23,214 nt of DNA from a virus. A model generated the notes under the pieces. That model made no database searches. It was given only the letters and a program-made list of their open reading frames with translations, and was not told the origin of the DNA. Position numbers and translations under genes: made by a program. This document shows, one piece after another, positions 10,974-20,863 of this stretch. The stretch spans positions 1 through 23,214 of IMG/VR virus record IMGVR_UViG_3300020419_000083; one strand, written 5' to 3'. How positions within the stretch are numbered: position 1 is the stretch's first letter; each line of letters opens with the position of its first letter.

Positions 10974-12671
10974 ATGGATCTCAAAACCTCAGCACTTTTA
11001 TTGAAGTATAGTCCTTCAGACGTTCAACGTGTCAGATATGTTGTAGAGTACGCTAATCACAACACCAATAACCCTAGCGAGTATATTGATGTGCATACAC
11101 ACAGCAATGCACAGAAAGAAATTGCAAAAATTTTCATAGAGACTGCAAACGCAGCGACACTTAATATGAAATCAAGTGATGCGTCACCAAAGATTGATAC
11201 TGTAAAAGAAAAAGAGACTACTGTAGATCCACAGTGTGAGAACCAAAAAACTATAAACGCTAAACCTTCTGAAGCATCTGCTAAGACAGAAGAGGTGACA
11301 GTAGAAGGGGTAAAAAAGATAGAAGAGGTTGAGAACCTTGATGAGTTGAGCAAGAAAACTCTAGGTGGTTACGTTGCTAAAGCATCAAAAGAAGTTGCAG
11401 GACATATGAAATACACGGGCGATAACCCTGATGCTAAAAAGATAAAGCAAGCACAAATTCACAAAAGGATAGGTGGTATGACAACAGCAGGTAAGAAGAT
11501 GTCAGAAGCATACGATGACGTATATGAAAAGTATGACAATAGATACTCTGATAATACAGGTGAAGAGTCAGCAAAGAAGAAAGCAGCACTTGAAAAGAAA
11601 AGAGGAATGAAGTTAGACAATCATCCTCAGTTCAAGAGAGAAGATGTAGAGCATATTGAAGAGAAAGATACATCAGTAATGAAGAAGTATCTTGATGATA
11701 AAGCAAAGAAGTTAACGAAGAAAAGAGATGCACAACCTGATCGTTATAAAAACAATCCTGCTTTTGATAGTACTTCACCTAATCCGAAGTACGAGGGAGT
11801 ATTGCATAAGGTAAAAGAAGCAGTTGATAATTATAATGAAGAACTCAAGATGACTAAGAAGGAGTATGGTAAGATTCATAAAGACTTCAAGTCAGATGAT
11901 CCTAAGAATCCTAGAACTACAAAGTATGTTCCAGGAAAAGGAACTGTATCAATGCCTGTTAAGTTTGTAGAGCATCATCAAAAAGATGAAAATGGTAAGG
12001 TAATCGAACACGAAGATACTGATACTACACCTAGTTCTGTAGAGGAAGGAAAGACTCCTAAGTCAGATAAGATGTATGATAAATGTTGGACTGGTTATAA
12101 GAAAGTTCCAGGTAAAGCACGTGGTGAGAAAGGATCTTGTGTTAAAGCAGAAGAAGTAATTAAGTCAACTACATTTGTTATTTCTGAAACTCCAAAGGGA
12201 GATGTAGGAAAAGACAGAGCGACTAAAGTAAAAGATAGATCAGCACGTAGTTACGGTGGATCAGATACTTTCGGTAAGAAATATCATTCTGGTGCTCGTA
12301 AAGTTATCCACGATATGAAGAGAGGTGTCAAGAAAATGAAAGGTTCTACTGATAGACCTGACAGTAAGTACAGTGGATATATTGATGATAGAAAAGGTAA
12401 GTCTCATTTCCACAATGAGGGTCAAGGTTTAGCGGGTACAAAGAAACACGGTAAGTCTGACTACGATGAACCTTCAAGAAAGAAGGTCAAAAAAGAAAAC
12501 TATTCTTGGAGAGAAAGAATAGAAGAAGGGATGGCAACTCCTGAGTCTGGTACTGGTAAGTATTATGTTCAAGGAAAACCTACTGCTATGCAGTTAAAGA
12601 AAAGAGCAGAGATGGAGAAAGTTAAAAAGTATGGTAGTGTGGAAGCACACGATAAAAAAATGAATAAATAA
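10974..12671 (+). CDS. Long Lys/Glu-rich protein, probable virion or prohead component
   Basis: A 565-residue, highly charged and mostly hydrophilic protein. The start (about 1-60) is the only well-packed part: KTSALLLKYSPSDVQRVRYVVEYA. ENLDELSKKTLGGYVAKAS at about 120-139 is a motif seen in many T4-like phage capsid-associated or internal proteins. DKCWTGYKKVPGKARGEKG at about 369-387 holds a conserved Cys, with a second Cys three residues later. The rest is low-complexity Lys/Asp/Ser, likely disordered. Several LxE or IxE sites (for example NLDE|L, RIEE|G) could be cut by the prohead protease, but such sites are frequent in this composition. A late-type box and AGGA precede the ATG. I infer a packaged or scaffold-like protein; no enzyme motif is seen. 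Confidence 0.6.
   Translation: MDLKTSALLLKYSPSDVQRVRYVVEYANHNTNNPSEYIDVHTHSNAQKEIAKIFIETANAATLNMKSSDASPKIDTVKEKETTVDPQCENQKTINAKPSEASAKTEEVTVEGVKKIEEVENLDELSKKTLGGYVAKASKEVAGHMKYTGDNPDAKKIKQAQIHKRIGGMTTAGKKMSEAYDDVYEKYDNRYSDNTGEESAKKKAALEKKRGMKLDNHPQFKREDVEHIEEKDTSVMKKYLDDKAKKLTKKRDAQPDRYKNNPAFDSTSPNPKYEGVLHKVKEAVDNYNEELKMTKKEYGKIHKDFKSDDPKNPRTTKYVPGKGTVSMPVKFVEHHQKDENGKVIEHEDTDTTPSSVEEGKTPKSDKMYDKCWTGYKKVPGKARGEKGSCVKAEEVIKSTTFVISETPKGDVGKDRATKVKDRSARSYGGSDTFGKKYHSGARKVIHDMKRGVKKMKGSTDRPDSKYSGYIDDRKGKSHFHNEGQGLAGTKKHGKSDYDEPSRKKVKKENYSWRERIEEGMATPESGTGKYYVQGKPTAMQLKKRAEMEKVKKYGSVEAHDKKMNK
12663..12670 (+). promoter_or_regulatory. Late-type box AATAAATA at a gene junction
   Basis: AATAAATA overlaps the stop codon of the Lys-rich gene and ends 2 bases before the next ATG. 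It may start a leaderless late message or be chance in A-rich Lys/Asn codons (AAT AAA TAA). Confidence 0.35.
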
Positions 12672-20113: not shown

Positions 20114-20121
20114 TATAAATA
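20114..20121 (+). promoter_or_regulatory. Perfect late promoter box TATAAATA, overlapping the early promoter start region
   Basis: TATAAATA matches the T4 late consensus and lies 2 bases downstream of the sigma-70 -10 box, where the early start point should fall. The leader of the small genes can thus be made both early and late. Confidence 0.65.
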
Positions 20122-20158: not shown

Positions 20159-20168
20159 ACGTTCATCC
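20159..20168 (+). repeat. First copy of riboswitch-like 5' box ACGTTCATCC
   Basis: ACGTTCATCC is identical to 20387-20396, the 5' strand of the complete downstream element. Here its matching 3' half is about 190 bases away (20360-20384), beyond the 61-residue gene. Confidence 0.6.
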
Positions 20169-20169
20169 A

Positions 20170-20355
20170 ATGGGTATTCTGTTTTACCTATCTTTGATCG
20201 CCTCACACGAACCAGTCCATTGGACTATTAAATGTGATGGATATAAAGAACTTGTTGAAGAAGTAAGACAAGATCAATATCTTGATCCTGCATCTAAGCA
20301 AAGTCTAATCAATTACTTTAGGACTAAAGTAGAAGGAGAGTGTAAAGAAGGATAA
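20170..20355 (+). CDS. Small protein with hydrophobic N-terminus, unknown
   Basis: A 61-residue protein. The first 12 residues (MGILFYLSLIAS) are hydrophobic but too short for a clear membrane span; the rest is a charged helical domain (GYKELVEEVRQDQYLDPASKQSLINYFRTKVEG) with Cys at positions 22 and 58. The ATG follows the box ACGTTCATCC (20159-20168) by one base, and that box recurs at 20387-20396 in the RNA repeat region after the gene. The gene thus lies between the two copies of the 5' strand of a riboswitch-like element. I do not recognise the family. No normal ribosome binding site is seen, which raises the possibility that the upstream box regulates its translation. Confidence 0.65.
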   Translation: MGILFYLSLIASHEPVHWTIKCDGYKELVEEVRQDQYLDPASKQSLINYFRTKVEGECKEG

Positions 20356-20359
20356 CTAG

Positions 20360-20426
20360 AGGACGCAAGTAGGTCGCGGAACGGATACGTTCATCCTTTA
20401 TAGGACGCAAACGATTGAAGGAACGG
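20360..20426 (+). repeat. Two-copy direct repeat, period exactly 42 bases
   Basis: AGGACGCAA, nine variable bases, then GGAACGG occurs at 20360-20384 and again at 20402-20426, offset by exactly 42 bases. Conserved blocks at fixed spacing with a variable middle look like two RNA aptamer 3' halves rather than a simple duplication. Confidence 0.85.
20387..20426 (+). promoter_or_regulatory. Glutamine-riboswitch-like element (Downstream-peptide/glnA type)
   Basis: A compact fold can be drawn: P1 CGTTC (20388-20392) with GAACG (20421-20425), and inside it P2 TCCT (20394-20397) with AGGA (20402-20405) around a TTAT loop. The conserved single-stranded parts (CGCAA after P2, GAAG before P1 3' strand) and the order CGTTCA..CC / GG.CG.AAG.. 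/ GAAGGAACG match my recollection of the glnA and Downstream-peptide RNAs, glutamine-binding aptamers found in cyanobacteria and cyanophages upstream of short peptide genes. A short peptide gene starts 30 bases after it (20456). No covariance search was possible. Confidence 0.65.
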
Positions 20427-20455
20427 GAATTAAACAACCCTATTACTCAAATCAA

Positions 20456-20584
20456 ATGGCACAAGTAACTTATCGTGGTATCCCTTATGATACCGATGCT
20501 CGCGTTCAGAGTCAGAAGACTCAGCAACCACAGCAGAAGAATCTCGTTTATCGAGGAATCAAACTAGAGGAGGAGAACAAATGA
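20456..20584 (+). CDS. 42-residue DUF4278-like peptide (probable 'downstream peptide')
   Basis: A 42-residue frame with VTYRGIPYD near the start and LVYRGIKLE near the end, a pattern I associate with DUF4278, a small domain common in cyanobacteria ([LV]TYRGxxY...YRG). The middle is Gln/Lys-rich. It is the first gene after the riboswitch-like element, and cyanobacterial Downstream-peptide RNAs are known to precede just such short genes. The frame ends in GGAGGAG codons that form the ribosome binding site of the next gene, and its stop overlaps that gene by 4 bases (ATGA). Its function is unknown; inference from context is a small effector controlled by nitrogen status. Confidence 0.75.
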   Translation: MAQVTYRGIPYDTDARVQSQKTQQPQQKNLVYRGIKLEEENK

Positions 20585-20674: not shown

Positions 20675-20863
20675 ATGCTAAAAATCCATTTTAGTTTAGG
20701 TTTTGATTACGACTTACCAGAGTATGATCCTGAGATCCACAATCCAAAAGAAGTTTTCGCTTTGTTAACTTACAGAGGAGTGCACTACGCTAAATGGGTT
20801 CAATTAGACACATTCAATATAAACAACTGGTTTCTGTCTAACCCTAGACAAACAGAAAAATAA
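20675..20863 (+). CDS. 62-residue DUF4278-like protein
   Basis: A 62-residue protein with LLTYRGVHYAKW at about 30-41, the same TYRG core as in the 42-residue peptide two genes upstream. The N-terminus is IHFSLGFDYDLPEYDPEIHNPKE, acidic and Asp/Pro-rich. GGAGGGG at 20661-20667 lies 7 bases before the ATG. A terminator follows 10 bases after the stop, so this closes the small-gene operon that begins at the 20083 promoter. The DUF4278 link is based on the short motif only. Confidence 0.72.
   Translation: MLKIHFSLGFDYDLPEYDPEIHNPKEVFALLTYRGVHYAKWVQLDTFNINNWFLSNPRQTEK

Follow-up and report, generated by a model that had tools for sequence, protein, structure and literature searches.

A candidate composite glutamine-riboswitch-like RNA with protein genes inside its fold in viruses of marine cyanobacteria

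The locus

The window, meaning the whole stretch of DNA that was analysed, is a virus record of 23,214 bases, within which an array of two similar units is located between nrdB, which precedes it, and the gene for transaldolase, which follows, an order that is also found in several named T4-like cyanophages (Table 1). The array is marked by three short boxes, each of which is present in two exact copies (CGTTCA at 20160 and 20388, GACGCAA at 20362 and 20404, GGAACGG at 20378 and 20420), the GACGCAA copies being offset by exactly 42; elsewhere in the window, the exact boxes in this order were not found on either strand. An initial annotation had described 3' halves lying 42 bases apart and a full small gene between the two halves of the first element, and all of its coordinates were confirmed, including those of the 61-residue open reading frame, termed gene A here. 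The 5' box which it had placed at 20159-20168, and which by its suggestion could control the start of this gene, is present but was corrected to the 5' strand of both P1 and P2 of an outer aptamer core. The TATAAATA motif upstream of the array presumably is a late-promoter-like box of T4-like phages. Two further reading frames of the window were recorded: a second small gene after the array (20675-20863), which matches PHROG 6192 (E 1.8e-26) and shows a weak end match to DUF4278, and a frame of 565 residues (10974-12671), for which no PHROG match was found at E <= 1.

Table 1. Positions of the array elements and their neighbours in the window.
Feature	Position	Strand	Remark
TATAAATA box, upstream of array	20114..20121	+	sequence
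CGTTC, P1 5' strand, outer aptamer core	20160..20164	+	
TCC, P2 5' strand, outer core; one base, then start codon	20166..20168	+	
Nested gene A, 61 aa, PHROG 6471	20170..20355	+	hydrophobic N-terminus, two conserved cysteines
GGA, P2 3' strand, outer core	20361..20363	+	
CGCAAGTA, core strand and loop E 5' half (AGUA)	20364..20371	+	
GGTCG, shared P3 5' strand	20372..20376	+	
GAACG, inner-core P1 3' strand (junction hairpin)	20379..20383	+	
GATA, junction-hairpin cap	20384..20387	+	
CGTTC, inner-core P1 5' strand (junction hairpin)	20388..20392	+	
Inner-core P2, TCCT-TTAT-AGGA	20394..20405	+	empty in window; gene B there in many relatives
CGCAAA, inner-core core strand	20406..20411	+	
CGATT, shared P3 3' strand	20412..20416	+	
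GAA, loop E 3' half	20417..20419	+	
GAACG, P1 3' strand: outer core (composite model) or second aptamer (separate model)	20421..20425	+	
Downstream gene C, 42 aa, DUF4278	20456..20584	+	PF14105 26.8 bits, cut-off 25.3

Genes inside the P2 loops

The association of gene and aptamer boxes was followed in 73 IMG/VR relatives of the 61-residue protein, whose loci were fetched via the protein alone. Both the CGTTCA box and a CGCAA...GGAACG 3' half were present in 71 of them and the box only in the remaining two; in the 55 loci that were printed and read, the box directly precedes the start codon, and GACGCAA...GGAACGG directly follows the stop codon or runs across it. Every one of the 51 phage records matched by the protein bears the name Synechococcus, Prochlorococcus or cyanophage. 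All 14 named phages which were fetched for encoding a relative of gene A (S-8S29, syn9, S-CAM1, S-CAM3, P-SSM4, S-TIM5, P-HM1, Syn19, P-RSM4, Sf-CH11, Sf-FR1, S-SCSM2R, S-IOM18 and Sf-FS3) possess two split units, the second enclosing a different small gene, gene B; in syn9 the two nested genes are gp196 and gp197. Five more phages were picked by a blastn match to the junction between the units; here the first unit is empty in all five, and gene B was identified in the second unit by pattern in three, while in the other two the gene B start is in place and the 3' half deviates from the search pattern. The second units of L341 and L343 were noted separately: gene B of L341 ends in ...WDAHD, so that the core there seems to deviate from GACGCAA, and arrays with this type of core variant were missed by the search patterns.

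A pattern scan (at least 120 contigs) together with the earlier loci yielded at least 348 distinct units, a set assembled by search, many units via their core letters, whose proportions are not population frequencies and whose core-letter conservation is in part built in. Loop sizes fall into 108 units of 45 nt or less and 236 of 100-260 nt, the remaining four comprising a loop slightly over 45 nt and three that are longer, and in each of the 236 long-loop units an open reading frame of 50-75 codons fills the loop. This frame starts 4 nt after CGTTCA in 187 units, 5 nt after it in 35 and 3-15 nt after it in the other 14; it stops 2-3 nt before CGCAA in 76, inside the aptamer 3' half in 148 (nearly always as AAGTAA or GACTGA/GACTAA) and further upstream in 12. 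Among 224 arrays, both loops are gene-filled in 57, the second only in 57, the first only in 51 and neither in 13, so each loop may be empty or filled, and the most frequent cores are found in gene-bearing and gene-free units alike. Where no gene is present, this loop is a plain hairpin, the 70 tetraloops including 24 of the UNCG and 9 of the GNRA type.

The unit-to-unit junction, which by itself is no proof of a nested gene, was found in 417 of 50,697 phage records, of which 416 are named Synechococcus, Prochlorococcus or cyanophage and one 'Marine'. A scan of host genomes gave 12 matches, six of which are real arrays (L326, L327, L332, L334, L336 and L337); the other six were rejected as chance occurrences in coding sequence. 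Two of the real arrays come from records named Prochlorococcus and the rest from Rhodospirillaceae MAG, Nonlabens isolate and Euryarchaeota MAG records; two sit on contigs of 188-189 kb, a length that matches these phages, and are taken to be probable viral contigs. A case in point is the cyanophage-type array in the record of the flavobacterium Nonlabens xiamenensis (188 kb; L332, 6800-8000), probably a viral contig within the assembly.

Several arrays show traces of rearrangement. Three-unit arrays with a gene in the middle unit (L163, ~320-700; an empty-filled-empty array in L292, 6503-6824) are likely recombinants, hinting at how genes move between loops, and in L143 and L173 gene A apparently begins in a first unit and ends in a second-type 3' half, which appears as if two units had recombined through the gene. 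The empty first loop of S-RIM2 (L339, 658-722) retains TCTCACAAT...TATGATAGTGAGA, resembling both ends of gene A in S-8S29, and looks like a gene deletion that spared P2. An HNH endonuclease gene, which could help to move the cassette, immediately precedes the array in S-TIM5 (L199, 140-634) and Sf-FS3 (L207, 174-581). In P-SSM4 (L198, 392-577) a manA RNA (RF01745, 184 bits) is located directly upstream of the nested-gene array, placing two structured RNAs in a row.

The P2 helix spans the gene

Pairs 1-2 of P2 are partly fixed by the search pattern, while pairs 3 onward are free. Across 141 distinct arm pairs, with the arms about 200 nt apart, the mean contiguous P2 stem is 5.63 as compared to 4.01 ± 0.09 with shuffled partners (0/2000), and the excess persists within gene A units (0/2000) and within gene B units (1/2000). 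All 141 arm pairs form pair 3, as CG, UA or UG, and sliding the partner by 1-3 positions lowers the stem from 5.62 to 2.37 or less. When 33 gene-containing sequences were given to RNAalifold unguided, P1 and, across the gene, P2 were recovered, two pairs of the latter showing 14 and 6 two-sided changes. In the pair counter, P2 exceeded shuffles in two-sided cells (20 vs 5.6, 0/500) and in covariation score (0.146 vs 0.081, 0/500); the number of pairs with two-sided change (2; 216/500) and that of further pair types (4; 500/500) were not above shuffles. The window itself forms three contiguous pairs in its outer P2, followed by A-A and A-G mismatches, and together with its 97% relative L121 it provides the two sequences of the aligned set in which pair 4 is broken.

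Pairing of the start codon beyond shuffles is clear for its A, slight for its U and absent for its G. An extension of P2 into RNA structure of the coding region was considered and rejected as not specific. As compared to synonymous shuffles, the nested genes fold with z values of -2.58 and -2.54, other window genes with -0.8 and the gene after the array with -1.92, a set which contains some unrecognised gene B. End-to-end pairing exceeds synonymous shuffles for gene A taken as a group (mean z -1.46) and does so little for gene B (-0.37); in the window it is not above synonymous shuffles (-20.0 vs -22.4), and the window loop folds at z -3.0 versus dinucleotide shuffles.

The initial annotation had left two choices for the first element, namely a gene sitting in the P2 loop of an aptamer or a copy that has decayed. 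The former is supported by P2 covariation across the gene, by natural gene-free hairpin versions of the same loop and by the 14 of 14 gene A phages. Decay, with pieces that flank the gene by accident, would fit the weak P2 of the window, but the 236 units keep the layout, the start distance and the covariation; as a general account it is refuted by these units together with the P2 covariation and is given almost no weight, and a loss of function confined to the window may have taken place. What the initial annotation did not describe is that a second gene often occupies the second loop and that a covarying P3 links its 'tandem' units.

A probable composite of the two units

In the glutamine-I riboswitch the order is CGGAAGUA - P3 - GAAG - P1 (crystallised construct, PMC5393176). 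The linker of the first phage unit begins with GTA in 188 of 188 arrays and that of the second ends with GAA or AAA in 186 of 188; measured against the glutamine-I order, each phage unit hence lacks one half of loop E while the pair is complete. The two linkers can pair as P3, AGTCG with CGACT and in the window GGTCG with CGATT, and compensated variants (AATCG/CGATT, AGACT/AGTCT, ATTCG/CGAAT, AGTCA/TGACT) occur in one array each. Arrays of the Prochlorococcus type possess AGCCGACT/AGCCGACT or AGCCGACA/TGCCGACT, mostly with two A-C mismatches in 8 positions. Over five positions the paired fraction is 0.88 versus 0.78 ± 0.02 in shuffles (0/2000; 17 distinct combinations of 186). L141, the sole single-unit example with a complete loop E, carries gene A in P2, a local P3 of its own and both loop E halves, and corresponds to an outer core that lacks the inner insertion.

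Of 203 short junctions, 193 have a spacer of 3 or 4 nt from GGAACG of the first unit to CGTTCA of the second, the scan pattern having permitted 1-5, and this spacer is simply a hairpin cap; in the window the junction hairpin is predicted at a probability of 0.99, calculated without ligand terms. All 13 natural gene-free arrays favour the composite over two separate aptamers by 2.3-4.8 kcal/mol. Their unconstrained minima contain the outer P1 in 13 cases, the junction hairpin in 11, P3 in 2 and either separate P1 in none, and RNAalifold, again unguided, returned for them the outer P1, both P2 helices and the junction hairpin, P3 not being part of the consensus. For the window, the free fold was computed at -71.0 and the composite at -66.0, ligand and tertiary terms being left aside; this deficit of 5 kcal/mol on the side of the composite may be expected of a switch and is no proof of one.

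The assignment of P1 partners deserves a separate remark. Partner variants were sought in 168 arrays, and none was seen in the 160 in which all four strands were found, the other 8 being short of one strand. Because the P1 letters are invariant, the partners are assigned by folding and by the covariation of P3, and confidence in the composite is slightly lowered since most of the computed minima do not contain P3, the helix itself being proposed from covariation rather than from computed folds. The covariation which the initial annotation had named as a check is seen in P2, across the gene; in P1 the invariant strands leave the partner indistinguishable.

It was also considered that the array consists of two separate tandem glutamine aptamers, each with its own P1 and with genes in the P2 loop or loops, without a shared P3 and with two-site cooperativity as proposed for other tandem riboswitches. 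The identical P1 strands, either partner of which pairs equally well, would allow for this, as would the absence of P3 from most minima, the second element, which on its own is near the Rfam threshold as a self-contained aptamer, and the tandem glnA RNAs on record (PMC2864571). However, the P3 strands of both units covary, 186 of 188 arrays have units that each miss a loop E half, and neither separate P1 appears in any of the 13 minima; moreover, in the 13 gene-free arrays the separate fold falls short of the free fold by 2.3-7.1 kcal/mol and of the composite by 2.3-4.8, the corresponding values in the window being 6.6 and 1.6. Independent aptamers are disfavoured on these grounds and considered unlikely. 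The array is best read as a composite, with an outer core of the glutamine-I-like type around an inner, circularly permuted one and a covarying P3 common to both, an anatomy supported by covariation and folding.

Relation to the glutamine riboswitch families

The match to Rfam, which had been proposed as a check, turned out positive for both models yet short of both thresholds. In the window, cmscan aligned RF01739 to 20386-20429 with 33.3 bits (E 2.9e-5; gathering cut-off 35) and RF01704 to 20385-20434 with 31.5 bits (E 9.5e-6; cut-off 33), which is 1.5-1.7 bits below the curated values. At Rfam gathering, the whole window gave no match, and none of 19 named-phage loci gave a glutamine match. 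The segment 20387-20426, which had been described as a complete element, is what both models match, but it probably shares its P1 strands with the split element. Among the features of RF01739, the three-way junction of P1, P2 and P3 is found, with P2 and P3 identified by covariation and P1 by consensus folding only, and loop E (AGUA/GAA) beside P3 is found only when both units are combined. Of RF01704, the second helix enclosing GGAACGG, i.e., the pseudoknot, shows three non-standard pairs (six marks) and gaps in the cmscan alignment of the window. The letters contacting glutamine in the glutamine-II crystal were reported to be C1, G18, C39 and G40 (PMC6698751), and counterparts of all four, mapped by hand, are present in both window units. 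The element was hence filed as one which would work like a glutamine riboswitch and not as a member of an Rfam family, glutamine sensing being putative.

The scores raise the question of whether the conserved fold no longer senses glutamine and instead plays a structural role, i.e., in protection of the transcript end, in ribosome recruitment without a Shine-Dalgarno motif or in protein binding. Phage cores below the Rfam cut-offs, with the first units of S-H38 and S-RIM12 reaching 23-26 bits against the Rfam glutamine models, are compatible with such a loss, as is the first unit being without the GAA half of loop E. The glutamine-contact letters kept in both window units (PMC6698751, mapped by hand) speak against it, and so do the boxes kept in 71 of 73 protein-only loci and the identity of the downstream gene, DUF4278, as a known partner of glutamine riboswitches; a fold that has lost its ligand is accordingly judged improbable, a shade more so than two independent aptamers.

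Compared with glutamine-I (RF01739, PMC5393176), the phage RNA has P1, a P2 hairpin and the order CGxAAGUA - P3 - GAAG - P1 in common; it differs in that its P2 loop holds a gene, its P3 carries a second, circularly permuted core, CGCAA replaces CGGAA, and its score is below the Rfam cut-off. With glutamine-II (RF01704) it shares the binding-site letters CGUUCA...CGCA...GGAACGG (PMC6698751), small downstream open reading frames and the occurrence in marine picocyanobacteria. In contrast to glutamine-II, the window match shows a poor enclosing 3' helix, and the phage genes are located inside the very hairpin which the crystallographers replaced by a short UUCG-capped stem, an RNA that still binds glutamine (PMC6698751). 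The same group's two-piece aptamer was split in the linker and not at the P2 loop (PMC6698751).

The nested and downstream proteins

The profile of PHROG 6471 matches gene A of the window with E 7.1e-15 and syn9 gp196 with E 2.4e-38. By blastp at E 1e-3 the 236 nested proteins form one connected group, which at 1e-10 resolves into 124 gene A proteins, 87 gene B proteins and some small groups; those that were viewed have a hydrophobic N-terminus and two cysteines. Against Pfam, genes A and B gave no family. An AF2 model of gene A (mean pLDDT 80) places two helices between the cysteines and found no match in the PDB at E <= 0.001, and a solved relative of the nested protein was not found either (best E 0.62). 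In 42 sequences of gene A seven residues are invariant (H, W, E, L, K and two C), the median dN/dS over 472 pairs of relatives is 0.196, and the gene is, as judged from sequence, under purifying selection. The gene after the array encodes YRG in 149 of 163 cases, and glutamine riboswitches were reported to precede DUF4278 genes (PMC6316151), the Pfam family whose cut-off is exceeded by gene C (PF14105, 26.8 vs 25.3 bits).

A Shine-Dalgarno-like motif is missing before all 85 gene A starts; it precedes gene B in 37 of 66 cases and the gene that follows the array in 141 of 163. This absence before gene A, together with stop codons lying inside the aptamer in 148 of 236 units, fits the idea of nested reading frames as leader-peptide-like sensors, in which the act of translation, not its product, controls aptamer folding and the downstream gene. 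The conservation of gene A, with seven invariant residues in 42 sequences and a dN/dS of 0.196, however exceeds the need of a leader, and the idea is regarded as more doubtful than a fold without ligand.

Upstream signals and the proposed switch

GTAN8TAC was described as the marine NtcA consensus, and NtcA sites were described in cyanophages (PMC3037559). This motif occurs in 149 of 204 upstream regions of relatives, as compared to 9.3 by base shuffling, and in 119 of the 204 it is located 50-64 nt before CGTTCA, a place where it is absent in the window. In 39 of 204 regions it lies 10-24 nt before CGTTCA as part of a dyad over the -10 region, and these copies are assigned to the dyad rather than to a likely NtcA site. 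Dyads such as GTATGCTAACATAC, across the -10 region and 10-25 nt before CGTTCA, were noted as a possible operator or 5'-end hairpin. The TATAAATA box was counted in 20 of 204 upstream regions versus 4.9 in shuffles. An expression-platform hairpin after the last GGAACG received no support (mean stem 3.54 vs 3.61 shuffled).

Considering all of this, the region is read as one composite glutamine-riboswitch-like RNA with a built-in protein gene, acting as a switch between ribosome and ligand, a reading to which a probability of about two thirds is given. Its outer core would consist of P1 formed by CGUUC (20160) and GAACG (20421), P2 looped by the 61-codon gene and P3 flanked by AGUA and GAA, whereby the far end of P3 would bear the permuted inner core with a P1 capped by 3-4 nt and a P2 that is empty or holds a related gene. 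The nested gene starts atop P2 and often ends inside the aptamer, so a translating ribosome and the folded aptamer would exclude each other. At low glutamine the aptamer would be open and the nested gene translated; with rising glutamine the composite would close and bury the nested start codon. Glutamine-II riboswitches were described as ON switches (PMC6698751), and in line with this behaviour the closed composite may allow the downstream DUF4278 protein to be made. Because translation and aptamer folding would exclude each other, the nested and the downstream gene would be under opposite control. More than half of the relatives, but not the window, have an NtcA-type box at a suitable upstream position, so that nitrogen hunger may start the transcript, and glutamine may then pick which protein the transcript yields.

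The full version of this model is held more tentatively, at slightly short of an even chance: two putative glutamine-binding cores, one normal and one circularly permuted, would be joined via P3, each being able to hold a gene in its P2 loop, with ribosome and ligand competing and with opposite outputs for nested and downstream genes. In this version the start codon would be placed atop P2, and core motifs (AAGUAA, GACUGA) would supply many of the stop codons. The window itself illustrates the arrangement poorly, given its three P2 pairs, its late-type promoter box, the missing NtcA box at the usual place and its empty second loop.

Known systems and significance

Glutamine riboswitches in T4-like cyanophages (PMC9602691, PMC9964418) and in a methylophage (PMC9004378) have been stated before; the accessible parts of these reports describe ordinary elements and mention no genes in the aptamer. 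Within titles and abstract openings of the literature, a gene inside a glutamine aptamer was not found, prior description being possible. Like tandem riboswitches, the phage RNA presents two cores in a row in one leader, but these cores appear interlocked through P3 and not independent. Self-splicing introns carry open reading frames in their loops, and the arrangement is alike in that a protein gene resides in a peripheral loop of a folded RNA; it differs in that no intron is known here and the phage RNA looks like a regulatory mRNA sensor.

Riboswitches are usually described as leaders ahead of the genes they control. Here, genes reside inside a sensor-like fold, in many ocean viruses of cyanobacteria, which appears to be a novel design for a genetic switch, with the sensing of glutamine being putative. 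The nested-gene elements were missed by Rfam at gathering (0 of 19 named-phage loci), and searches with capped loop lengths would miss other such cases. The findings suggest that natural selection can give rise to an aptamer that is circularly permuted and carries genes, and they open to experiment the question of how viruses that infect very abundant photosynthetic cells may sense the nitrogen status of their hosts.
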